Below are positions 2 through 24,806 of a DNA stretch of 29,315 nucleotides, one piece after another; position 1 is the stretch's first letter, and each line of letters opens with the position of its first letter. The DNA is from a virus. Below the pieces are notes generated by a model, which was not told the origin of the DNA, ran no database searches, and worked only from the letters and a program-made list of their open reading frames with translations. Made by a program: the position numbers and the translations under genes. Location of the stretch: positions 1 through 29,315 of the IMG/VR virus record IMGVR_UViG_3300043803_000806. The stretch is one strand, 5' to 3'.

Positions 2-2281
2 CTTGACTTCCTTCCTGACCTTGAAGCATCAAGCAAAGAGCTACACGATAAACTTTGTGGATGCGTTGAAACAACACCATCTGAAGGATTGCACATTTTC
101 TACTATTTGCCACTAGGTAAATCAAAATGCCGTGAATTGGCGGTAATGTCTACGGACAATGGCAAGAGATGGCTTGCCGAAGCAAAAGCCAAAGGATCGA
201 CTAAAAAGATTGCTCCACCATTAATAGAAACAAGGGGGGCGGGTGGGTATGTAGTTGGATTCTATTCTCAGGCAGTCTCAAAAATTGATGGATTAGTTAA
301 GCCATATAAAATGCTGCATGGTGATGTTTCAACCATTCCAACCCTGACTGCGGATGAGCATGAATTTCTGATGTCATTTGCCCAGTCTTATGATCAAAAA
401 GCAGCAAAGAGATTCATCGAGTTAAATAAAGAACCTTACCAGTACAAAGAAATAGGTAAGAAAACTGCCCTTGACCAATGGAGAGCGGAAACTTCATGGC
501 CCGAAATCCTTCCAGATTCTTATAGAGTCGTGGAAGTCAGGCATGATTACTTTTTAGTTTGGCATCCAGATTCGTCAGGCAGAGAACCTAACGCAATTGC
601 AGGGTGCAAAAATGGTGGCATGGATCGCTATTGGAATTTCAGTCCATTAGACTGGAGATTGAGTCCAAACATTCCATTAACCAAAGATTATGTCTACTGT
701 ATGAGTCGAGGATGGCAACCTGGAAGTAGAGAATGGAAAACATTTTACGCACAGGTGTTTGCTAAGTATTCAATAGACAAAATTGAAGACGAACCTGTGA
801 ACGAATCAAGATGGGATTTCCTTGAAACAACAAAGTCAGGTAAGGTTAAACAAGTCAGAACTGTAGACATTGTGCCTGACGATGCCATTTCATTTCCTGG
901 GTGGATCGATACATACATCGACTACTGTATGAGAAACGCACTATACCCAGAGAAGCGAATTGCTGCTGCATCTGCACTAGGTATGTTCTCCGCTTTAGTG
1001 GGAAGATCCATCATGGGGCCAAATGAACTAAAGCTTAACTTGTATATAGTTGTTCTTGGCCTGACAGCTTCGGGCAAAGATTTCCCGCGAAAATTAAACG
1101 CTAGAATCTGTATGGAAATTGATAACGCAAGCTTGCTAATGACGAAAGTGGGTTCAAGAGAGGGTCTTGAAGAAAAAGTAATTCAAGGGCCAAAGTTTCT
1201 CATGGCTGATGAAGGTGCATTTGATCTTGAGAAAGCTAAATCGGGTGACACAAGGTTCAATGATGTTATGGGAACGATGCTTGAACTATTTACATCGAAC
1301 TATATCAAGAGGCGAGCAAAGGCGGGTGATGCGGATTCTGAAAACTTTATTCGCTATCCATTTCTTTCGATTATGACCTCATCAACTCCAGAAGAGTATT
1401 TCAAAGCACTATCACCTAAAATGCTTCGGTCAGGTTTTTACAATCGTTTGCTAATTCTTCAGTCTGCAATCCGAGGTAGGATGAATCTTCGTGGAATGTC
1501 TGTATCAGAACCAATTCCAGAATATTTGGTTGAAGTTGCTGCAAGACTGATCGCCATGAATGAGAATCTTGTTCCTGGAGTTATCAAGGAATTCATGCAA
1601 GATACTAAGCTTGATGCACTTGGAAATGCACCACTAAACCAGATTGAAAAAGATTCAAAGGTTCTTTTGCTTGATGAAGATGCGTTAGAATTCTTTCAAA
1701 CCCAAGTATGGGAAAATGATGATTTGTATTCCAAGTATCAGAAGAACAGCGAAGAAGAAAAGGCTTCTTCATGTGCGAGGCTTCCTGAGTTGGCTTTGAA
1801 AATAGCTTGCTTGTGGGAATTAAGTCAGGACATAAACGCTGACACGATTTCTTTAGCTGGTGTAATGGCTGGATTTAAATTTGTTCGTGAAGTGAATAAG
1901 AGGCAAACTGCAAACACAGTCATGGTAAGCGATACTAAGTTTGGTGAAATTACAGATAAGCTACTAAACATGATCAAGGATTCGTTGAACGAAATCGAAC
2001 CAGATGTGTATGGTGTAAAAATGATTGATGCTAAGAGGCATCTTAGGAAGATTGTACACAGCGGACAATCGGTTGACGATGCAATTCGATACCTTCAAGA
2101 TTGCGGTGAGATTTCAATCAGAAAAAGCAGGGATAAAAATGGTGCTGGTTCAATGTACATTGTTATAAATGAACAAACACCACAAAGCATGATTGAAACA
2201 GTTATCGAAAAAAGACCTCCTAAAGATGACCAATCACCTTCTCGATCCCAATCCGAGGAATCGACATCAGAGCCAAGTTAA
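2..2281 (+). CDS. Prim-pol / superfamily 3-like helicase replication protein (5' partial)
   Basis: This is a phage replication protein combining a primase-polymerase domain with an ATPase. The frame stays open to the left edge, so the true start lies outside the window; a TTG at 89 would be an artefact of truncation. The visible N-terminus has VETTPSEGLHIFYY followed by LIETRGAGGYVV, which matches the second half of the bifunctional primase/polymerase fold (TPSGG-x-H and the RG-x-GGYVV strand). The catalytic acidic residues would lie upstream. ETSWPEIL resembles the linker seen after prim-pol domains. The ATPase part (about nt 900-1500) has GLTASGKD as Walker A and FLMADE as Walker B, as in DUF3987-type phage/plasmid helicases. 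The last 100 residues look like a winged helix (KMIDAKRHLRKIV, DDAIRYLQDCGEI). The extreme C-terminus is a Ser/Pro/Glu tail that overlaps the terminase gene on the other strand. The family assignment is by motif only. Confidence 0.8.
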   Translation, partial: LDFLPDLEASSKELHDKLCGCVETTPSEGLHIFYYLPLGKSKCRELAVMSTDNGKRWLAEAKAKGSTKKIAPPLIETRGAGGYVVGFYSQAVSKIDGLVKPYKMLHGDVSTIPTLTADEHEFLMSFAQSYDQKAAKRFIELNKEPYQYKEIGKKTALDQWRAETSWPEILPDSYRVVEVRHDYFLVWHPDSSGREPNAIAGCKNGGMDRYWNFSPLDWRLSPNIPLTKDYVYCMSRGWQPGSREWKTFYAQVFAKYSIDKIEDEPVNESRWDFLETTKSGKVKQVRTVDIVPDDAISFPGWIDTYIDYCMRNALYPEKRIAAASALGMFSALVGRSIMGPNELKLNLYIVVLGLTASGKDFPRKLNARICMEIDNASLLMTKVGSREGLEEKVIQGPKFLMADEGAFDLEKAKSGDTRFNDVMGTMLELFTSNYIKRRAKAGDADSENFIRYPFLSIMTSSTPEEYFKALSPKMLRSGFYNRLLILQSAIRGRMNLRGMSVSEPIPEYLVEVAARLIAMNENLVPGVIKEFMQDTKLDALGNAPLNQIEKDSKVLLLDEDALEFFQTQVWENDDLYSKYQKNSEEEKASSCARLPELALKIACLWELSQDINADTISLAGVMAGFKFVREVNKRQTANTVMVSDTKFGEITDKLLNMIKDSLNEIEPDVYGVKMIDAKRHLRKIVHSGQSVDDAIRYLQDCGEISIRKSRDKNGAGSMYIVINEQTPQSMIETVIEKRPPKDDQSPSRSQSEESTSEPS

Positions 2282-3776
2282 AGGCATCTGCAAGGTCAGG
2301 AGAGTGCTTAAGTCTACGCTTCATCATGTCCTTAGACTCGACCACTCTTCTTCCGTTCGTATCCACAATGTATACTGGTGTGCGTAACTCTTCCATCATT
2401 CTTTCCCGCATATGAAGCGGAAGATGTCCGATTGAAACTTTGCCTTCCATCGCAAGTTCTGCTGCTTCAAACCATAGAGCGGATCTCATGTTCGGGAACT
2501 CCCGCCACCTTGGTGCTTCACCAGATGAATTAATGCCGTAAAACATATAGTCACCCTTGTTATCGACCACACCACCACCAACACCACCCTCATCAATAAG
2601 CACAGGGATTTTGTATTGCGATTGCCTTGGTGTTTCATACTTCTGACAATACTCTTTAATCTTTTCCGAGAATTCTTTCGTAGACAATCCACGATACTCC
2701 TTTGCATCTATGATGCAGCATCCATGCCTGACCACTAAACAGGATCTATCGTCACCGAATCTTGCAGGGTCAGCACCAATTTGAACCACCCAATCCTTAT
2801 TGAGCGGAATTGGATCAAGGATTTGTTTGAGTGCCAAAGCACCCCATACCGAGTTGATCGCCTTACTTGGATATCTCCCAAGAACTTGAATATCAAAAAG
2901 CGGGTCTTCAACCATGTAGTTTTTATCATTGAAGGTAAAGTACCCTGGCTCAGATTCTTCACCTTCTCTAGCGGATCTACATTCGTTTTTGATGCGGTTC
3001 TCTACATACTCATAGTTAATTGCACCTGGAACTAGATCGGCTTTAAAAGCAACATTAGGATGGTCTAAAGCTGAGAGGTGAAACACTTTCCAGTCAGGAG
3101 AGTTTTCAGCAAAGTAAGCGGGTGATGAGGCATCGTATGGATTGAAAATACAGAACCATAAACAATTCTCTTTGCTTGCTGAAAGCATCGATTCCGCTCG
3201 TTCCCAGAAGGTTGGTTCAATACCGCTCGCTTCGTCAAACAAGATGCACAAACCACCAGCGGAATGCCTCCCTTGGAAAGCATCAGCTTTCTGGGCGGTA
3301 AGTCCTTGGATGTAATGCGAGGGGTTCTTTTCTAATCGATTAGCCTTGGGCATCCAGTTTGGATCTCTAGGTCTAACCCTGCGTAATTCTTTGAACACAC
3401 CATCTTTAATTTGTTGGGCAACAGGTGCTGATATCAAAACTTCTGATGGAGTAAAGTGATCGTGAAACCATGAAGCAATAACAGCACACAAAAAAGTTTT
3501 GCCTTGATTGTGTGCGGATCGAACTAGAACTTTTCTTGCACCATTGGCAACGGAATTAAATATTTCCATCTGCTGGGGAGTCAGGCTGATTCCGAGGTAT
3601 TCGCAATACTCCCCTGGGTCTTTCGGAATCACTATAGTCTTCTGATTCTCCCGATTCACCCTCTTCACTTCTTGGATTTCCGAAAGTTTCCCCTGCAACG
3701 CTGGACTCGATAAGACCCTTTGCCATTTCTTTTGCAAGTTGTTTGTTGAGGAGTTTTTGGAGTTCTTGCTCATCAT
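2220..3776 (-). CDS. terL: Terminase large subunit
   Basis: This is the ATP-driven motor and nuclease that packages DNA into the prohead, working with TerS and the portal. With the start at 3776 it has 518 residues. The ATPase has a Walker A variant, SAHNQGKT (residues 87-94), and Walker B LCILFDE (176-182). The RNase H-like nuclease shows acidic residues in GADPARFGDD (D336), VLIDEGG (D395) and SPDLADAF (D494, D497), so both active sites look intact. An ATG-ATG pair at 3776 is preceded by AAGGA at five bases. The frame opens earlier, at 3914, but that extension has no ribosome site. The conserved stretch DPGEYCEYLG-x-x-LTPQQ (residues 53-69) is still inside the upstream gene's coding region, so TerL really does overlap TerS by 221 bp. 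The 3' end overlaps the convergent replication gene. Confidence 0.9.
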   Translation of the reverse strand: MMSKNSKNSSTNNLQKKWQRVLSSPALQGKLSEIQEVKRVNRENQKTIVIPKDPGEYCEYLGISLTPQQMEIFNSVANGARKVLVRSAHNQGKTFLCAVIASWFHDHFTPSEVLISAPVAQQIKDGVFKELRRVRPRDPNWMPKANRLEKNPSHYIQGLTAQKADAFQGRHSAGGLCILFDEASGIEPTFWERAESMLSASKENCLWFCIFNPYDASSPAYFAENSPDWKVFHLSALDHPNVAFKADLVPGAINYEYVENRIKNECRSAREGEESEPGYFTFNDKNYMVEDPLFDIQVLGRYPSKAINSVWGALALKQILDPIPLNKDWVVQIGADPARFGDDRSCLVVRHGCCIIDAKEYRGLSTKEFSEKIKEYCQKYETPRQSQYKIPVLIDEGGVGGGVVDNKGDYMFYGINSSGEAPRWREFPNMRSALWFEAAELAMEGKVSIGHLPLHMRERMMEELRTPVYIVDTNGRRVVESKDMMKRRLKHSPDLADAFNLALMSIPRIGIEKVIGHL

Positions 3777-4014
3777 TTCGTTCCTTATTATTTCTCTCGA
3801 TGATCCATTGCATGGCTCGCCAATCCTCAGAACCATGTTCATGGATAACCTGTTGCATAGCAATGGTTGCCTGTGCTTTGGCTTTAACCATCTCTTTTTT
3901 ATGCCAAGGTTCAAGATCCCTTCTGGAAATCCCGAAGGCCTTCATGGCTAATTTAAAGTCAATTCCACGCTGAATGTTCTCCAGCATTTCATAAAAACTA
4001 TCTGAATCTATCAT
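3556..4014 (-). CDS. terS: Terminase small subunit (putative)
   Basis: This is the probable DNA-recognition subunit of the packaging terminase, 152 residues long. The N-terminal third reads as a helix-turn-helix (GIDFKLAMKAFGISRRDLEPW). It is followed by a helical stretch with WRAMQWIIERN, a pattern typical of small terminase and related phage HTH proteins, which often have W-x-A-x-x-W-x-LER. The C-terminus (residues ~95-152) is acidic and low in complexity (SEEGESGESEDYSDSE) and is encoded in the region that also encodes the N-terminus of TerL in another frame. The start ATG at 4014 overlaps the upstream stop in an ATGA, suggesting translational coupling. The assignment rests on position directly before TerL, size and the HTH. 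Confidence 0.72.
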   Translation of the reverse strand: MIDSDSFYEMLENIQRGIDFKLAMKAFGISRRDLEPWHKKEMVKAKAQATIAMQQVIHEHGSEDWRAMQWIIERNNKERNDEQELQKLLNKQLAKEMAKGLIESSVAGETFGNPRSEEGESGESEDYSDSERPRGVLRIPRNQPDSPADGNI

Positions 4015-5206: not shown

Positions 5207-6109
5207 TTAATCAGCATCAATATAAGCTTTAAATATTCCAGATGCAGTTGATGTTTCACTTTCTGGAATGTATCCAGAATTGAAACTAAAAACAACAGGG
5301 TGATTGACTTTAATATTAACTGATCCATATACAATTCCTGTTTTCCTGTTAGAAGATCCTTGCTGGTAATTATTAATTATCATAGATGCTGTTGCTTCTG
5401 TTTTATTAGGATCAATAACTTTATAGTTGTAATAAAGAACTCCATTGCTTCCAGATACAAAATTCATGTATTTAGTCACTCCGTCACTAAGCATAGTAAT
5501 TTCCAATTTTGATGTACTTTCAAGTCCGCTTCCGGTGTAAGTTCCAGCATAATCACCTGTTCCTGTTTGGCTTAAAAAAGAAATGCCAGCGGGTGGTGTG
5601 GGTGTTGGGGTTGGAGTAGGGGTTGGTGTAGGTGTTGATCCACCAATAGTATCTACCATTATTGCCGGTATTAATTGATCTGGATCAAAATCAACAAAAA
5701 ATGTTTGACTAGGAACTAAAGAAACAACTGAAGTGTAATCATAATAGCCAATTAATCTGTTGCTAATGCTGCTATTGTAAATTATAAGGTATCTAAAAGG
5801 CCCGAAGAATTCATTTTCTGGGCAATTAAAAGTAAGGTTTTTAAAAAACAAACTATATATACCATCTTTTACAATATATTTTGTTTTTTCTAATGTATAA
5901 CCTCCATTTGGATAAGAAAAGCTTCCAAAGGGTTCTGGAAAATCTGTGGTGTTCCAATTGGTTTTATTTAATGGAATAGGTTCATAGTTTTCTTCGTCAG
6001 GATCATACACGCCAGATGTAATTGCCATCTTTAAAACATCTGTTTCTAGGTTATGAAGACCACCAGAAAAATCTGTTTCAAAACAAGAAAATGGAATTAA
6101 TGTCGCCAT
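5207..6109 (-). CDS. Putative virion protein with Pro-Thr linker
   Basis: This is a 300-residue protein, last in the leftward late region. The N-terminal half (FGPFRYLIIYN, LIGYYDYTSVVSLVPSQTFFVDFDP) matches the beta-rich pattern common in phage particle proteins, in which an 'iiY..../LIgYyDy.....v..GqtftVdfdp' segment recurs. A (PT)8 linker (about residues 158-173) joins it to a second beta domain rich in Ser, Thr and Tyr, which might bind a surface glycan. The ATG at 6109 follows AGGG closely behind the upstream stop. It is probably a tail or surface decoration component; its exact position in the particle cannot be told. Confidence 0.68.
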   Translation of the reverse strand: MATLIPFSCFETDFSGGLHNLETDVLKMAITSGVYDPDEENYEPIPLNKTNWNTTDFPEPFGSFSYPNGGYTLEKTKYIVKDGIYSLFFKNLTFNCPENEFFGPFRYLIIYNSSISNRLIGYYDYTSVVSLVPSQTFFVDFDPDQLIPAIMVDTIGGSTPTPTPTPTPTPTPPAGISFLSQTGTGDYAGTYTGSGLESTSKLEITMLSDGVTKYMNFVSGSNGVLYYNYKVIDPNKTEATASMIINNYQQGSSNRKTGIVYGSVNIKVNHPVVFSFNSGYIPESETSTASGIFKAYIDAD

Positions 6110-12578: not shown

Positions 12579-13211
12579 TTAAACAGAAATATAGATTGAT
12601 GTTATAGTTAAATAAGCCATGCCAACAGAAGCCCCACCTATGTTAAAATAAATCTGTACTAAATCACCAGAATTAATTGCTATTGTTCCTGTAAAACTCA
12701 TTCCACTAGCATAAAGAACACCTTCTATGTAAGTTCCATTGATCGTAACATAACCCATCGCCCCGCCTGACATCATGTCATATAGATTGAAATTGTAGTT
12801 AAGAGTACCACTAATTGAAGCCTGATAATTAATTGATGCATCAGTTCCATTAGTGCTTCCAGATAAAGGTGAAATCATCGAACCTTCACCAGTAATTGTG
12901 TGGTCACTATTGATTTCTGAAATCTTAACTAAATTTGGTGTAGGAGTTGGAGATGGAGTTGGTGTTGGCGTTGGAGTAGGAGTAGGTGTAGGTGTAGGTG
13001 TAGGAGTAGGGCTAGGAGTAGGAGTAGGAGTTGGTGTAGGAGTCGGTGTGGGTGTGGGTGTGGGGCTAGGGGATGGAGTGGGTGTAGGAGTGGGGGTAGG
13101 AGTAGGAGTAGGACTAGGAGTTGGAGTAGGTGTAGGAGTAGGACTTGGACTAGGGGTAGGTGCAACATTTTTTATATTTACCACTCTGTTTGTGAAATTA
13201 GTTACTGTCAT
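12579..13211 (-). CDS. Surface/fibre protein with long Pro-Thr-Ser linker
   Basis: This is a 210-residue protein of three parts: a short N-terminus ([15 protein letters not shown]) probably for attachment, a stiff Pro-Thr/Pro-Ser linker of about 75 residues, and a C-terminal beta domain ([19 protein letters not shown] ... [20 protein letters not shown]) resembling a jelly-roll. HTITGEG-x-x-x-SPL is a variant of the TL-x-GDG-x-x-SPL motif often found in phage fibres. The start at 13211 is two bases after the previous stop, with GGAG upstream; an earlier in-frame start is antisense-like. The linker is built from degenerate hexamers, so the repeat is old at DNA level. It is likely an outward-projecting virion protein. 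Confidence 0.68.
12936..13161. repeat. Degenerate hexamer array coding (PT/PS)n
   Basis: About 225 bp of imperfect hexamer repeats (GGTGTA, GGAGTT, GGAGTA, GGGGTA on the plus strand) code for the Pro-Thr-Ser linker on the minus strand. Many synonymous changes separate the units, which suggests selection for the peptide rather than recent slippage. Confidence 0.85.
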
Positions 13212-13212
13212 G

Positions 13213-13542
13213 TTATGAAATCTCCACACCAAACAAAGAGAATGAAACTGAACCTCCAGCAGAATAAACAAAAATTGCATCTGTTGCTGCCAATGTTATT
13301 CCTATTGTAAGAAAAATTGAATCTGATGCTGCAATAGGTGAATCGTAAGCAATATACATTTCTGGTACAACTGCTGCATTTAGTTTTGCTACACCTATTC
13401 TAAAAGTTCTTGCTGACGCAGTTTGATTACAAATAACCAGCGTAGAAGCGATAGCACTTTTTGATGCTGGAACTATATACAAATTGTTTTCTGTTGCTGC
13501 TGGTGGAATAACCTGACCAAGAACTTTATGTACCTGTGCCAT
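13213..13542 (-). CDS. Small conserved phage structural protein
   Basis: This is a 109-residue beta protein beginning [20 protein letters not shown] and continuing [20 protein letters not shown]. It matches, by eye, a widespread small phage protein in which 'KVLGQ..P.a.t...LY.VPa.....vSSLvicN' is followed by 'Y..yd.pi.a.dt......t....D.i.vys', usually found among tail-fibre genes. The biochemical role is not known; it is probably a receptor-region or fibre-attachment component. The ATG at 13542 overlaps the previous stop in TAATG, behind a GGGGG-rich ribosome site. Confidence 0.7.
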
Positions 13543-14219
13543 TACATACCCCCAATTAAAAAAGGATGAAATATTTTTGAATCAAAATCTGGCACAGCAG
13601 CAGTAGTTGCTGCTACAACTTGGCCTTTAGTATTTATCGTTAAAACAGGAATTAAAGATGGAGTTCCATATTTTCCAGCGACAACACCTGTTGTTGCAAT
13701 TGCTAAAGTTATCGTTCCAGAATCAACAACTGGAGAATCATAAACCATTAAATCTTCTGATTCTATTGCCACGGAGCTTACACCACCAACTATTACTTCT
13801 AATGGTGATTCGGGTGTTCCATCTCCAACAAGAGTAGAATTATGACTAACCGCTGTAAGATATATGCCAGATAAGTCTGGAATATCATCAGAAACTAATT
13901 CACGAAAAGAAGGTTCACCAGTAGTGCTTATTTTACCGCACAGAACTGTATTCTTTGCAACACTTTCAAAAGCTATATCTATAACACCGCTGGAAACAAT
14001 CGGGCTACCAGAAATAGAAAAAATAGAAGGTGCTGTGATTCCAAATGAACTTGTAGAAGGTGTAGTGCTTTCATATCTAAAAACAGTTACATAAGTATCA
14101 TCAACAGTTACCACTTTAGAAACAGGGTCTGAAGCCGTTACAACAACTTTTTGATTGTTTACGGAAACCATGAATGGTTCTTCTTGAACAGTCACATTAG
14201 CAAAAATATCTGTTGGCAT
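13542..14219 (-). CDS. Tail fibre-like protein
   Basis: This 225-residue beta-repeat protein has fibre motifs: NSTLVGDGTPESPLEVIVGG, close to the common TL-x-GDGT-x-x-SPL, and IPVLTINTKGQVVAATTA, a variant of the T-x-D-x-KGRVTA segment of tail fibres. Residues ~7-52 (VTVQEEPF ... VTVFRYESTT) match the N-terminus of the protein encoded at 18008-18481, so the two genes share a duplicated attachment domain. It ends in LIGGM. It is likely a structural piece of the tail-tip fibre system. Confidence 0.72.
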   Translation of the reverse strand: MPTDIFANVTVQEEPFMVSVNNQKVVVTASDPVSKVVTVDDTYVTVFRYESTTPSTSSFGITAPSIFSISGSPIVSSGVIDIAFESVAKNTVLCGKISTTGEPSFRELVSDDIPDLSGIYLTAVSHNSTLVGDGTPESPLEVIVGGVSSVAIESEDLMVYDSPVVDSGTITLAIATTGVVAGKYGTPSLIPVLTINTKGQVVAATTAAVPDFDSKIFHPFLIGGM

Positions 14220-15993: not shown

Positions 15994-16797
15994 TTAAAAT
16001 GTACCACCATCAATGCTTGGTGGTAGATCATTCAACTCTGACATTAGCACAGGTTCCCCAGTTGCATCAGCCACCCATATTTTTTTATCAGCAATGTTGA
16101 CCGCTATTTCATAAGCAACTAAGCCTGTTGGGGTTGCAGATGCAGTCGAGCTTCTTTTGGGCCGAATAATGTTCGCTGTTGTTGGCGAAGGTGTCGGGCT
16201 CGGTGTCGGGCTCGGTGTCGGGCTCGGTGTCGGGCTCGGTGTCGGGCTCGGTGTCGGGCTCGGTGTCGGGGAACTACACGCTCCCGCTGTAACTGTGGGT
16301 GCTGATGCTGCCCCATAATCAGTAGACCAAAGACCCGTCAAGGTCGATGCGTAATAAAGTCTAGTAGTATCATTAATGATTTCATATGACCCCATCATGC
16401 CCATGCCCATTTTTAAAAGGGGCTGGGTGATGTGCTGCCAATATCCAGACATGAATTGGTTGTAGGTATTAGAAGTAAAACTATATGTTCCGTTTGCGAC
16501 AGCGGTTCCTGCACCAGCTACGCAATAAGGATCTACTAAACAGGCTCCCTCTGTTAGCGTTGGGGCTGGTGATGTGCCATTGCCTGAAACATTCCATCCG
16601 GTCAGAGGTGGTGTAGCAGCAGAACCACTTGCAGTATACCCTTCCGTACTGCCGTTAATAAAATACCATAGGTCATCACCATTATAAAGAATCTTTATTG
16701 TAGGTGTTCCTACTTTTCTGTATTCACCCGATGCATAATAATCATATGTACCATTATAAGCTGATGTACCAGCATTTTGGACGCAATAACTAGGCAT
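15994..16797 (-). CDS. Fibre/receptor-binding protein with duplicated Cys-bounded domain and PTPS linker
   Basis: This is a 267-residue protein. Two similar domains of about 83 residues (4-86 and 91-174) both begin YCV-x-x-AGT-x-x-x-NGTY and end PT-x-T-x-GAC, so each is bracketed by a Cys near its start and one at its end. A (PTPS)n linker (about 177-206) follows. Then comes a module (IIRPKRSSTASATPTG, EIAVNIADKKIWV) nearly the same as the N-terminus of the next fibre protein. The protein ends in SIDGGTF. The order suggests outward-facing adhesion domains on a stalk above a mounting module. The start overlaps the upstream stop (TGATG). Confidence 0.75.
   Translation of the reverse strand: MPSYCVQNAGTSAYNGTYDYYASGEYRKVGTPTIKILYNGDDLWYFINGSTEGYTASGSAATPPLTGWNVSGNGTSPAPTLTEGACLVDPYCVAGAGTAVANGTYSFTSNTYNQFMSGYWQHITQPLLKMGMGMMGSYEIINDTTRLYYASTLTGLWSTDYGAASAPTVTAGACSSPTPSPTPSPTPSPTPSPTPSPTPSPTPSPTTANIIRPKRSSTASATPTGLVAYEIAVNIADKKIWVADATGEPVLMSELNDLPPSIDGGTF
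16190..16270. repeat. Perfect 12-bp coding minisatellite
   Basis: The unit GGTGTCGGGCTC (plus strand) is repeated six times without change, plus nine bases of a seventh copy. It codes for Pro-Thr-Pro-Ser on the minus strand. It is clearly more GC-rich than its surroundings and identical unit to unit, which points to recent slippage expansion and probable length variation. The 12-bp period keeps the frame. Confidence 0.95.
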
Positions 16798-20145: not shown

Positions 20146-23007
20146 TTAAACACCTAATTCAAATTTTTCTTGTTTATTCAAAGCACCAGGAATTTTTCCT
20201 TCAAGAGCAACTGGAGGTGCTGCTTGTGGTTTATTCCCATTAGCTTTCTTTATTCCTTCTGCAAAAGCATCTGCGAGATTATTCTTGTCTAATTTTCCAG
20301 CAATATCGCCAAGCATATCTTCTTGGGTCTTTGCTCCAGATGCTGCCATCAACGCATTCTTTCTGACTTCGTCACCAACTCCAGCAATTGATGTTGATGA
20401 TACTTCTCTTACTGCTGCACCAACAGAAGATCCCTTTTTTATCCTATCCTCTTCTGCTGGTTTTCCTTTTTTAAGGCTTTCTCCTGACCTTGATATTGCT
20501 TCTCCACCTTTAGCAATACTTTCTCCAACATCACCCATTAACGGTATGTAAGATATTACTTTCCCTAATCCCTGAATAATTAAACCAACAATGTTTACAA
20601 ATGCACCCAATAAAGTTTGAATTATCCCAAGAGTTGTTTTTATAACAATGGTTAACAAATTAAACGCACCACTAAGAGTTGCCATAGCAACATATACAAT
20701 TGGTTCTCCTAAAACTCCAATTGTCCGAACTAAAGCTGATGTAAAGGCAGTTAAAAACTCTATTATTGGCTTTATAACATTTGTAATCCCAACAATTATA
20801 AGAGCAAATTTGTCAAGTACTGGGCCAATAACGCTGTATAAAACCGCTCCAAAATCAAGCAAAGGAGAAGCGATATTATCAAATGCAACCGCAGATTTAT
20901 TTATCGAAGGAGTCAACTTCTTCATCGAGAAGTCTACATAGTCTGCGTATTTCTTAAGCAATGGTGTTAAATATTCAACCGCTGGTACTAAAGCCCTTCC
21001 AATTACACCACTAAGATCGTTCATCACTATTTCAAGTTTTTGCATTAAAGCTGGATTTGCTTTTGAAACCATTGGGCCAAAAATAGCAAGTGCTTGATTA
21101 GCTATTTTAACAGATTGTGTAACGCTGTTAAATGCAACACCTAATGCAGCGGATGCTGCACCAGCAAGAGTAAGTGATTTTGCGGATTTTATTATAGAAG
21201 AAACAGTACCACCAATGTTTACAATTGCTGCTGCAATCGTTCCACCAACTGAACCGCCAGAAGCATAATAACCAACTCCGCTAGAACCTCCTCCTCCAAT
21301 TGAACCGCCAGAAGAACGATATTCAGTTTTTGGTGCATCTTTCCCTTGTTTGTACTGACTAATAACTGACTTTAAAAAACTTCCAGAAATGTTGTCTCCA
21401 AGTTTCCTTTTGTTTTTCCCGCTGTTTATTGATTCAAGTTGCTTTTTGTTTTCTGGATCTTGAGAAGCCTTTTTATTTACAACGAACTCACCTGGAGTAA
21501 GCATTGCTGGTTGGGTATCTGTACCCTTTGGCTTCATTGGATTAGAAGCATCACCACCACCAGCAAGGTAAGAAACATCATTGTCAAGCTGTTCTTTTGG
21601 TTGCTTATATCCAATACCCTTGGCCATCATCTTTAAGCCATAGTTAACCAATGGGCCTCTAAACAATGGTGAAAAGCTTTGAAACCCAGCAATCATAGAA
21701 TCCAATTCTTTTTTGGTTCTCTGATTGGCTTGTTCAAGCTGTTTAGCAGCTTGCTCTTGCTGTTTAATTAAGTCGTTTGCAGCTTTTGCTGATTCTTGTG
21801 CTGCTTTTAAAGATTCTTGTGCTTCTTTTTCTTGTTTTTTTCTAAAGTAATCTCTTAATACTTTTTCTGCTTTAGCTGCATCTTCTTCTGCCTTTTCTTT
21901 TCTTTTTGCTGCATCTTCAATAGCTTTGGCAGCAGCATCTGATGCAGCAGCAATCGCTTGTGCTGCTGCATCAGCAGTAGCTTTTTCGTCATTTTCAAAA
22001 AGCTTTTTAGGAGGCCCAACAAAAACCTTTGTTCCTTCTTTTCCAAGCTTTTTTACTTCTTCTTCGTCTTTTTGTCTTTTTTGATCCCTATTAAATAAAT
22101 CTTTTGATGGGCCTACAAACTCAGGCCCAGTAGGAAGAACTTTCTTTCTTTCGTTTTCTTCAAAGTCTTTTTTTAAAGGCCCAACAAATTCTTTAGTTCC
22201 TTCTTTACCGGCTTTTTCAACTTTCTTTTCTTCTGCTTTTCTAGCATTATCAATGTCTGCTACAGTATCCCTAACACCAGAAATCATCTTAGACCAAGCA
22301 TCTCCGGTTTGATTGATGCCTTCAATCAAAGAAGAAATTTTTACTGGTCTAACTTTTTCCTGTCTTTTTTCTATCTCTTTTTCTCTGGCCTTTTCTTTTA
22401 CTATTCTTTCTTTTTCTTGAGGATCAATTATTTTTTTAGGCTCTTTTGCTGCCTTTAGTTCTTTTGGTGGCTTTGGTTCTTTTGGTGGCTTTGCTTCTTT
22501 GACTGGTTTTGGCTTTAATGCCTCTTCTAAACGCAAAGCAATTATTTTTGCTTGATCCCTTAACTTCTGACTTCTAAGGTCAGCATCTTCTTGTTTTTGC
22601 TTTTTTGCTTTTTGCTTTTCTGCTTCTACTTCTGGATCTACAACTTTGGGTTGTTTAGGTTGCTTTGGAACATCTACCTTTGCTGCTTCTATCTTAGGAG
22701 CTTTAGCTTTTGGTTCTGGCTTTACTTCGGTCTTTGTTTCTTTTTCTTTTACAACCTCTTTAGTTGATGTAGGCTTGTCCTTAACCGCTGGTTTTTGAGC
22801 CTTCTCAGGCTTTGACACCACTTGAATTTTTATCGCTTTAATTGCGTTTACAAGAGTTGTCTGCAATTTCTTAATTGCTGTAGTCAAGCCATTAAAGCTT
22901 TTAGTAAAATCCCTAGATCCCGCTTTAACGCTTTGGGCGATATTCTCTACTGCACCAACCAGATCGTTTGTCATCTCGTCATCTGATTTTAGTGGAATAT
23001 CTGCCAT
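20146..23007 (-). CDS. Tail tape measure protein
   Basis: This 953-residue protein sets tail length and threads the tail tube. Residues 1-430 are highly charged and helical, with Lys/Pro/Glu-rich and long Ala/Lys/Glu coiled-coil stretches. Three copies of an EGTK-x-FVGP-like repeat lie at about 266-343. At 480-515 is the marker AGGG...KGTDTQPAMLTPGEFVVNKKAS; TPGEFVV-x-K is widespread in tape measure proteins. A Gly/Ser linker (565-590) leads to hydrophobic helices (595-650 and 715-820) that could enter the membrane during DNA delivery. At roughly 0.15 nm per residue the tail would be about 140 nm; that is an estimate. The start overlaps the chaperone stop as TAATG. Confidence 0.93.
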   Translation of the reverse strand: MADIPLKSDDEMTNDLVGAVENIAQSVKAGSRDFTKSFNGLTTAIKKLQTTLVNAIKAIKIQVVSKPEKAQKPAVKDKPTSTKEVVKEKETKTEVKPEPKAKAPKIEAAKVDVPKQPKQPKVVDPEVEAEKQKAKKQKQEDADLRSQKLRDQAKIIALRLEEALKPKPVKEAKPPKEPKPPKELKAAKEPKKIIDPQEKERIVKEKAREKEIEKRQEKVRPVKISSLIEGINQTGDAWSKMISGVRDTVADIDNARKAEEKKVEKAGKEGTKEFVGPLKKDFEENERKKVLPTGPEFVGPSKDLFNRDQKRQKDEEEVKKLGKEGTKVFVGPPKKLFENDEKATADAAAQAIAAASDAAAKAIEDAAKRKEKAEEDAAKAEKVLRDYFRKKQEKEAQESLKAAQESAKAANDLIKQQEQAAKQLEQANQRTKKELDSMIAGFQSFSPLFRGPLVNYGLKMMAKGIGYKQPKEQLDNDVSYLAGGGDASNPMKPKGTDTQPAMLTPGEFVVNKKASQDPENKKQLESINSGKNKRKLGDNISGSFLKSVISQYKQGKDAPKTEYRSSGGSIGGGGSSGVGYYASGGSVGGTIAAAIVNIGGTVSSIIKSAKSLTLAGAASAALGVAFNSVTQSVKIANQALAIFGPMVSKANPALMQKLEIVMNDLSGVIGRALVPAVEYLTPLLKKYADYVDFSMKKLTPSINKSAVAFDNIASPLLDFGAVLYSVIGPVLDKFALIIVGITNVIKPIIEFLTAFTSALVRTIGVLGEPIVYVAMATLSGAFNLLTIVIKTTLGIIQTLLGAFVNIVGLIIQGLGKVISYIPLMGDVGESIAKGGEAISRSGESLKKGKPAEEDRIKKGSSVGAAVREVSSTSIAGVGDEVRKNALMAASGAKTQEDMLGDIAGKLDKNNLADAFAEGIKKANGNKPQAAPPVALEGKIPGALNKQEKFELGV

Positions 23008-23375
23008 TATTTTATCCCTGGTGGTAAGCTTCCAAATTGCTTAATCCAAGATGTTTTCATCTTGGCTTGACTCATCCCTAATGATGCTCCCATTTTCATA
23101 AATTTATCGTATTTTTGCAACAGCATATCTTCTGGAGAAACTCTTTTTTTCCTAGTATTCCATTCATGCTTTTGGTCAGGAATGGTAATAGGAATCCCCT
23201 TGTCATCCCTCTTTCGGTAATAAAGTTCTACTATCTGCCTATCGGTTAACTTCTCAATCTCCCAAGGCCGAAGGAGATAAGGCTTATCCATCAAGTTTAC
23301 ATAATAGTTTTTTAAATTAGGTGGAGGGATTGGTTCTTTTGGATTAAAAGAACTATCACCTACACCTTCTTGCCG
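23007..23375 (-). CDS. Tail assembly chaperone T-part, made as a -1 frameshift fusion
   Basis: This frame is the second half of a G-T type tail chaperone. It has no ATG with a ribosome site near its beginning, and it is open without a stop back into the end of the 23360-23782 gene. The reading RQEGVGDSSFNPKEPIPPPN through NYYVNLMDKPYLLRPWEIEK looks like normal protein before any ATG. Ribosomes slipping -1 at CCCAAAC would join residues 1-136 of the upstream protein to 122 residues here, giving a fusion of about 258 residues. The C-terminal part is basic and helical. In lambda, G and G-T bind the tape measure during tail assembly; position just before the tape measure supports the same role. 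Confidence 0.82.
   Translation of the reverse strand, partial: RQEGVGDSSFNPKEPIPPPNLKNYYVNLMDKPYLLRPWEIEKLTDRQIVELYYRKRDDKGIPITIPDQKHEWNTRKKRVSPEDMLLQKYDKFMKMGASLGMSQAKMKTSWIKQFGSLPPGIK
23333..23353 (-). promoter_or_regulatory. Stem-loop downstream of frameshift site
   Basis: GTTCTTTT and AAAAGAAC form a perfect 8-bp stem with loop AATCC on the minus strand, 21 bases after the slippery heptamer. This is farther than the usual 5-9 base spacing, so it could act as part of a larger fold. AGGTG between the two and CACCT after the hairpin could add a closing stem. Confidence 0.5.
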
Positions 23376-23782
23376 TTTGGGAATGATTTATCCCGAACAA
23401 TTTCCATTACCGCTTCAAACCTTTCATTCTCAGCAAGCATGACATCTTGAACTTCATTCTCAGGTGCGGAAAACAATATAGATGCAAATGACAATGCTCC
23501 AGATGGAGTGGACAATGCTGCTATGGAATTCTCGCTACCAAATGAATAAATTCCGCTAGCAATATCTCTGGTTACAGAAGAAATCGCTTCACGGAATTCA
23601 ACAGGTTCAAGTCTGTCCTTCATTGAGAAAACAGAATCGAGAGCTTTCTTCTCCATTCGCTTTTCAAATTCAGCTTTGACTCTCTGAGTGATTAATCCAG
23701 CGGTATATTTTTTCCCATTGTATTCAATGGTCAAAGATCCTTCACCGCTGGAATTCAACAAATTACCAACTGTATCTGACAT
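23360..23782 (-). CDS. Tail assembly chaperone G-like protein
   Basis: This is a 140-residue protein, helical and acidic overall. It begins MSDTVGNLLNSSGEGSLTIE and has a beta hairpin near the N-terminus (LTIEYNGKKYTAGLI) followed by helices. It is located between the tail tube and tape measure genes, the normal place of the G chaperone. Near its end the codons TTC CCA AAC contain the canonical slippery heptamer C CCA AAC, at 23381-23375. Most ribosomes should read through to the stop and make this short form, and a minority should make the G-T fusion. GAAAGGAAG lies before the ATG. Confidence 0.8.
   Translation of the reverse strand: MSDTVGNLLNSSGEGSLTIEYNGKKYTAGLITQRVKAEFEKRMEKKALDSVFSMKDRLEPVEFREAISSVTRDIASGIYSFGSENSIAALSTPSGALSFASILFSAPENEVQDVMLAENERFEAVMEIVRDKSFPNGKKV
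23375..23381 (-). promoter_or_regulatory. Programmed -1 ribosomal frameshift site CCCAAAC
   Basis: The heptamer C CCA AAC fits the X-XXY-YYZ rule in the zero frame of the G gene. After slipping, CCC and AAA pair in the -1 frame, which is open to 23007, while the zero frame stops four codons later. Two stops bound the overlap, so the site is near the end of G, as in lambda-like tail chaperones. Confidence 0.85.
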
Positions 23783-23807: not shown

Positions 23808-24212
23808 TTAATCTGTAAATTCTGAAACATAACCAACCCTAAAATCAAACTCTCCGTATGTAGCAAAAGTCAAAGATATTTTCTGAACATCTTTTACATC
23901 TGCTGTATAAGTCAAAGCGGTTACAACGCAATTAGTTATAGCTATAAATTGTTCTGGAGTATCTCCATCAAGAATCGTTATTGTACCAACAGATCCTTGC
24001 TTTAAATCTTCGTATCCACCAACAACTTGAAGCAAATCAAGTGTAATCTCTGCTGAATACAAACCAATTGCATGAGAATCAAAACCTTGATTCGTGAAAT
24101 TAGTAGTATCAACAAGTTCTGCTTTTGAATTTACAGAAATGTTGGTTGCTGGAAGATCATTTGCAAAACCAGAAAGCCTGACTCTTCCATTTTTACCCGA
24201 TAAAATAGCCAT
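23808..24212 (-). CDS. Tail tube-like protein 2
   Basis: This is a 134-residue beta protein. The core, TTNFTNQGFDSHAIGLYSAEIT, and the end segment, YTADVKDVQKISLTFATYGE, match the neighbouring upstream protein, so the two are paralogues. The fold pattern (SAEIT, a central strand block, 'KDVQKI.LTF') is that of siphovirus major tail tube proteins, which polymerise in hexameric rings. Its gene lies directly before the chaperones and tape measure. AAGGAG precedes the ATG. Which of the two copies forms the main tube cannot be decided by reading. Confidence 0.72.
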   Translation of the reverse strand: MAILSGKNGRVRLSGFANDLPATNISVNSKAELVDTTNFTNQGFDSHAIGLYSAEITLDLLQVVGGYEDLKQGSVGTITILDGDTPEQFIAITNCVVTALTYTADVKDVQKISLTFATYGEFDFRVGYVSEFTD

Positions 24213-24251: not shown

Positions 24252-24806
24252 TTAACCTAATTTGTAATCAGCAAAGTTTACTGTTGGTGTAGCAGAAGGA
24301 ATCAAAGTTAATTTGATCTTTTGTACATCTTTAACAGCAACATCGTAAGTCACTTGGGAAACAGTACAATTTTCAAACACAAATTCGGTTCCAGCATTGC
24401 TTGATGCTTTGTATTCATTAGTTGCTAATGATGATTCTGTACTGGTTGGCAATCCAACTGGAGAGGTAAATGGTGCTAAACCAAGAAATCCATCCCTATT
24501 ACCATCTGGAGAAAGCTTTAGATCGCATTTCATGCCAGCAAATATAACAGGCATATTTGGTGAATGAGTTCCACCATCAAAATTACCTTTGTCATAAACA
24601 GCTTCTACAGTTATTTCAGCACTTTGAATTCCGTCTGAAAGAACTACAAATCCTCTACCATTGTAATTACTTGCATCTGGAGTATCATGCTTTGTAGCGA
24701 TAGAAACAGATGTACAAGGAAGAAATATTGGTGTTAAATCGTCAGTTCTTTCTATGTAAAGACTGGCAATTTTACCTGTTAGAAAAATATTGTCTATTGC
24801 AGCCAT
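24252..24806 (-). CDS. Tail tube-like protein 1
   Basis: This is a 184-residue protein paralogous to the next one downstream: DASNYNGRGFVVLSDGIQSA followed by EIT, and TYDVAVKDVQKIKLTLIPSA. It carries about 50 more residues, including a Gly/Asn/Ser-rich central insertion (KLSPDGNRDGFLGLAPFTSP). Both genes have AAGGAG ribosome sites. It is the probable major tail tube protein or a second tube/terminator-associated form. The order after the connector genes and before the chaperones supports this. Confidence 0.72.
   Translation of the reverse strand: MAAIDNIFLTGKIASLYIERTDDLTPIFLPCTSVSIATKHDTPDASNYNGRGFVVLSDGIQSAEITVEAVYDKGNFDGGTHSPNMPVIFAGMKCDLKLSPDGNRDGFLGLAPFTSPVGLPTSTESSLATNEYKASSNAGTEFVFENCTVSQVTYDVAVKDVQKIKLTLIPSATPTVNFADYKLG

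Follow-up and report, generated by a model that had tools for sequence, protein, structure and literature searches.

An uncultivated freshwater phage very probably produces two tail assembly chaperones, G (140 aa) and the longer G-T (258 aa), by −1 programmed ribosomal frameshifting of the type known from lambda G/G-T. The phage DNA analysed here is IMG/VR record IMGVR_UViG_3300043803_000806, positions 1–29,315, and this whole 29,315-nt stretch is referred to as the window. The putative shift site, C_CCA_AAC, lies on the minus strand near the 3′ end of the G-like gene, and the features that surround it are listed in Table 1.

Table 1. Features of the putative frameshift region and of its neighbouring genes in the window.
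Feature	Position	Strand	Basis and remarks
Second tail-tube-like gene	24252..24806	−	C-terminal part like the 23808-24212 protein, translations compared by eye (VKDVQKIKLT / VKDVQKISLT)
Tail tube (major tail) protein	23808..24212	−	Profile search, PHROG 1407 major tail protein, E 5.9e-5
G-like gene, zero frame, 140 codons	23360..23782	−	GAAAGGA ribosome binding site just 5′; family alignment
Shine-Dalgarno-like CGGGA	23391..23395	−	9 nt 5′ of heptamer; AGGGA in half of relatives
Slippery heptamer C_CCA_AAC	23375..23381	−	Sequence; conserved in 39/40 distinct relatives; spans three codons without synonymous change
T-like frame (−1), 122 codons + stop	23007..23375	−	Would be read only after the shift
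7-nt spacer, heptamer to hairpin	23368..23374	−	Predicted folds
Downstream hairpin	23319..23367	−	Predicted outer stem 23367..23357 with 23329..23319; inner stem 23353..23346 with 23340..23333
Tape-measure-like gene, 953 codons	20146..23007	−	Hydrophobic C-terminal third; relatives' gene at homologous position matches tape-measure profiles

The heptamer and its genomic setting

On the minus strand the 3′ end of G reads GAT AAA TCA TTC CCA AAC GGC AAG AAG GTG TAG, in which C_CCA_AAC (23381..23375) occupies the canonical X_XXY_YYZ register of the zero frame. This bears out a preliminary description of the region, which had placed CCCAAAC at these positions within the codons TTC CCA AAC. The same description held that the −1 frame stays open to 23007 and gives a fused product of about 258 aa; the T frame indeed ends with a TAA at 23009..23007, and the fusion amounts to 136+122 = 258 aa. 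A stop codon immediately 5′ of the site closes the −1 frame on that side and so confines the frame change to a junction zone of 28 nt (23387..23360), within which CCCAAAC is the sole X_XXY_YYZ. On its own, the heptamer carries little weight: with the codon usage of this phage, an in-frame X_XXY_YYZ is found in 5.5% of random 10-codon stretches, the genes of the window contain 55 such in-frame heptamers, and CCCAAAC itself occurs four times in the window. Judged from sequence comparison, it is the conservation among relatives that makes the case strong and takes it well beyond chance.

The gene order in the window is tail tube, G, T and tape measure, with profile support mostly from relatives, and it agrees with the earlier placement of a lambda-like G/G-T pair just before the tape measure. 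The two overlapping frames lie between the tail tube and tape measure genes, as in the lambda type of arrangement. The ATG of the tape-measure-like gene shares the last base of the T stop codon (TAATG). A long tape-measure-like ORF is located directly 3′ of T in 17 of 17 relatives examined, and at the homologous position tape-measure profiles match in L229 and L069. The two adjacent tail-tube-like genes of the window look like tandem duplicates; a deep relative likewise carries two tandem tail-tube-like copies (L229:1221-1976).

Elsewhere in the window, the large terminase (2220-3914, minus strand) shares only ∼25–29% identity with Sinorhizobium phages, Arthrobacter phages and uncultured Caudoviricetes, which places this group at a distance from cultured phages. 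No tRNA genes are encoded in the window, and CCCAAAC is therefore not backed by a window-encoded phage tRNA-Pro or tRNA-Asn. ORFs 3′ of the tail module contain long Pro-Thr/Pro-Ser repeats (5207-6109, 12579-13280 and 15994-16797). A T_TTT_TTA stands in frame at 13557-13563 (minus strand), where only a few codons of 13542-14219 remain, and from it the −1 frame leads directly into the following gene (109 aa, TAATG overlap); this could be a second frameshift fusion, though it is probably due to chance.

Conservation of the site and of both frames

Matches to G and T were obtained in about 60 IMG/VR contigs from many metagenomes and in one bacterial MAG contig from the host search, labelled Proteobacteria, which may be phage DNA binned along with the bacterium. 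A genome match in Neobacillus (L228) covers 27 residues and was set aside. The comparison set comprised 40 distinct relatives, in which G is 64–99% and T 45–93% identical to the window. All 40 have the same heptamer position and −1 register, and in those examined the junction is followed by the G stop after 13 or 28 nt. The preliminary description had suggested an alignment of homologues as a check, and in this alignment heptamer, register and both frames are kept down to 45% T identity. The frequency of chance heptamers given above might favour a reading in which CCCAAAC is fortuitous and the second frame results from a sequencing or assembly frameshift within one gene. This reading is hardly credible and is already refuted by the relatives: the two-frame arrangement recurs in contigs from many metagenomes as well as in the MAG contig, the G stop follows the junction at the distances just given, and synonymous substitutions are found in both frames.

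CCCAAAC is present in register in 39 of the 40 relatives. The third base of the preceding Phe or Tyr codon is C in 40/40 (vs 32% usage elsewhere in the genes), CCA encodes the Pro in 39/40, with ACA in the remaining one (vs 41%), and AAC encodes the Asn in 40/40 (vs 28%); F/Y-P-N is the sole three-codon window of G with zero synonymous change. Constraint acts on each heptamer base, the third base of the preceding codon among them, which fits tandem slippage and argues against fusion of the frames by transcriptional slippage or by another kind of shift (+2 or single-tRNA slippage). Moreover, the runs at the window's site are only three bases long, too short for polymerase slippage, and the downstream RNA hairpin described below fits ribosomal rather than polymerase slippage.

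Two relatives nevertheless lend such alternatives some weight. One of them (L025/L039, a 4.4-kb contig; L025:3395-3410) has CACAAAC in place of CCCAAAC, which breaks P-site re-pairing and would permit A-site re-pairing only. Both frames are open and the hairpin is retained in this contig; because the variant is known from this single contig, it may represent a sequence error or a weakened site. The other is the deep relative L166/L229 (T 34% and G 26% identical to the window), in which G and the −1 T frame lie between a major tail protein (E 6.6e-11) and a tape measure protein (E 7.1e-8), in the same order as in the window. Its junction, CCC AAA AAA AAA GTA, has an A-run instead of CCCAAAC, and therefore the direction and position of the shift have been kept while the slippery letters have changed; the A9 run could support polymerase slippage. 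With all of this considered, it is extremely improbable that the frames are joined otherwise than by tandem −1 slippage at C_CCA_AAC.

The −1 frame past the site is a protein-coding frame of 122 open codons. In relatives with 45–68% identity, T similarity begins at the shift point or one codon later. T codons 6–27 show pN/pS values of 0.06–0.15 within clades, comparable to the remainder of the gene, and in most sequences they precede any ATG, GTG or TTG start. The impression of the preliminary description that T reads as protein ahead of its start codons is thereby substantiated, and purifying selection on these codons means that ribosomes must enter T from G.

We also considered that T might be made separately, from an internal start at ATG 23291 (or TTG 23294) whose use is coupled to G termination. 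It had been stated earlier that T has no plausible independent start. Such codons do exist, 27–28 codons into the frame, the ATG is present at this position in 40/40 close and medium relatives, and the end of G is just 67 nt upstream of it; the statement holds insofar as the ATG is not preceded by a Shine-Dalgarno sequence in the window or in seven relatives. The conservation of the ATG is explained by its Met being part of an invariant protein motif, LMDKPY, with Val at this residue in the deep relative L166. In addition, the ∼20 codons preceding the ATG are under purifying selection as T-frame protein, and internal initiation leaves the frozen CCCAAAC unexplained. Separate synthesis of T is therefore very unlikely, and we favour entry into T by frameshifting from G.

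A downstream hairpin and a possible upstream element

While the preliminary description was right about the heptamer, it missed a conserved hairpin 3′ of the site and perhaps a Shine-Dalgarno-like stimulator 5′ of it. The predicted hairpin of the window has a minimum free energy of −19.3 kcal/mol (z −4.6), and its distance of 7 nt from the heptamer falls within the 5–9 nt spacing considered for a downstream RNA structure. Hairpins beginning 7 nt past the heptamer are predicted in most distinct relatives. The covariation analysis was restricted to the 16 sequences that share the stem register of the window. In this set, 93.8% of the cells pair and two-sided changes, which represent few independent events, are seen at 5/10 pairs (U-A to C-G, A-U to G-C, G-C to U-A, G-C to C-G, and U-A to A-U/G-U). 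As a control, the partner strand was slid by 1–3 columns, which resulted in 38–53% pairing and two-sided changes at ≤ 2 pairs. Likewise, native hairpins were more stable than 1000 synonymous-codon randomisations (mean z about −2, from 29 related, non-independent sequences).

In other clades the G-rich and C-rich arms are the same but pair in another register, and because the stem register varies between clades, the hairpin is not one rigid element. A single covarying stem common to all relatives was not found, RNAalifold gave no useful consensus for the L053/L066 group, and no comparable hairpin was seen at the junction of the deepest relative. Collectively, the position, stability and covariation of the hairpin indicate that it is a probable frameshift stimulator. 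Upstream, the Arg codon 9 nt from the heptamer is CGG or AGG in 40/40 relatives, which is suggestive of CGGGA/AGGGA as a possible second, Shine-Dalgarno-like stimulator.

Proposed mechanism and comparison with known systems

We propose that most ribosomes would complete G. A minority would pause at the hairpin, perhaps aided by the upstream CGGGA/AGGGA, and slip one base back, with tRNA-Pro and tRNA-Asn moving from CCA AAC to CCC AAA; these ribosomes would then carry on in the T frame to yield G-T. Both the occurrence of slippage and its efficiency are inferred. The preliminary description had predicted FPKRQEGV as the peptide that spans the junction. The main product should instead contain FPNRQEGV, because tandem slippage after decoding of AAC retains the Asn; FPKRQEGV would mark P-site-only slippage before A-site decoding and is probably minor.

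Re-pairing at an A-site AAC needs tRNA-Asn on AAA, which is thought to be less favourable in bacteria than AAG and counts against the proposed mechanism. It is conceivable, if rather doubtful, that this freshwater phage lineage depends on C_CCA_AAC, with tRNA-Asn rather than tRNA-Lys in the A site, together with a clade-shifting stem register and a constant 7-nt distance. If this were true, it would point to hosts whose tRNA-Asn, e.g. through a changed wobble modification, turns AAC into a good shift codon for bacteria.

The role of G and T as tail assembly chaperones is deduced from their position and architecture, by analogy, because neither sequence searches (G and T) nor fold searches (G) matched a named chaperone. 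Specifically, comparison of G and T with PHROG, Pfam and PDB gave no named-chaperone match, and nucleotide and protein searches of annotated phages with G, T and the capsid gave no match. With the G model (pLDDT 82), a fold search returned nothing in PDB and only uncharacterised phage proteins among viral models; the T model is of low confidence (pLDDT 69), and the fold comparison therefore covers G only. G-T pairs usually have little sequence in common (PMC5009743). By analogy with lambda, in which the tape measure is coated by G and tube subunits are recruited through the T part (PMC5009743), G would coat the tape measure protein of this phage and the T part of G-T would recruit its tail tube subunits.

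Tail assembly chaperones have thus probably been identified in a group of phages with G and T proteins unmatched in the annotated phage collection, which also supports the tail tube and tape measure calls. The relatives further amount to a clean, naturally occurring alignment of a bacterial −1 frameshift cassette that has AAC as its A-site codon; the cassette consists of heptamer, 7-nt spacer, covarying hairpin and a possible upstream Shine-Dalgarno element, and the alignment is useful for testing which parts are essential.

The −1 cassette of E. coli dnaX has a Shine-Dalgarno-like element about 10 nt before the heptamer and a downstream hairpin. The site described here is like dnaX in having an upstream Shine-Dalgarno-like element, with a role suggested by an Arg codon that always ends in GG, and a 3′ hairpin; it is unlike dnaX in gene and heptamer. 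A literature search for CCCAAAC as a phage shift site found no paper, most subscription papers being outside its coverage. The related C_CCA_AAG is highly shift-prone in E. coli (PMC5009743), and in the haloarchaeal tailed viruses HCTV-1, -2 and -5 the g-t frameshift sites end in AAC (PMC5009743). Unlike the present site, those of the HCTV viruses function in archaeal hosts and have a different first triplet; the comparison covers the site only.

As in phage lambda, overlapping frames between the tail tube and tape measure genes would give a short and a −1 extended product, and an X_XXY_YYZ site is located near the end of G. In contrast to lambda, where the slippery site is G_GGA_AAG (Xu, Hendrix and Duda 2004, as reviewed in PMC5009743), the site here is C_CCA_AAC, and neither the sequences of G and T nor the fold of G show detectable likeness to their lambda counterparts. 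The window's site also has a covarying 3′ hairpin; the comparison with lambda covers slippery site, gene arrangement, sequence and fold. The feature is real but of an ordinary type: this frameshift strategy is already known from lambda and many other tailed phages, and the general picture is unchanged.
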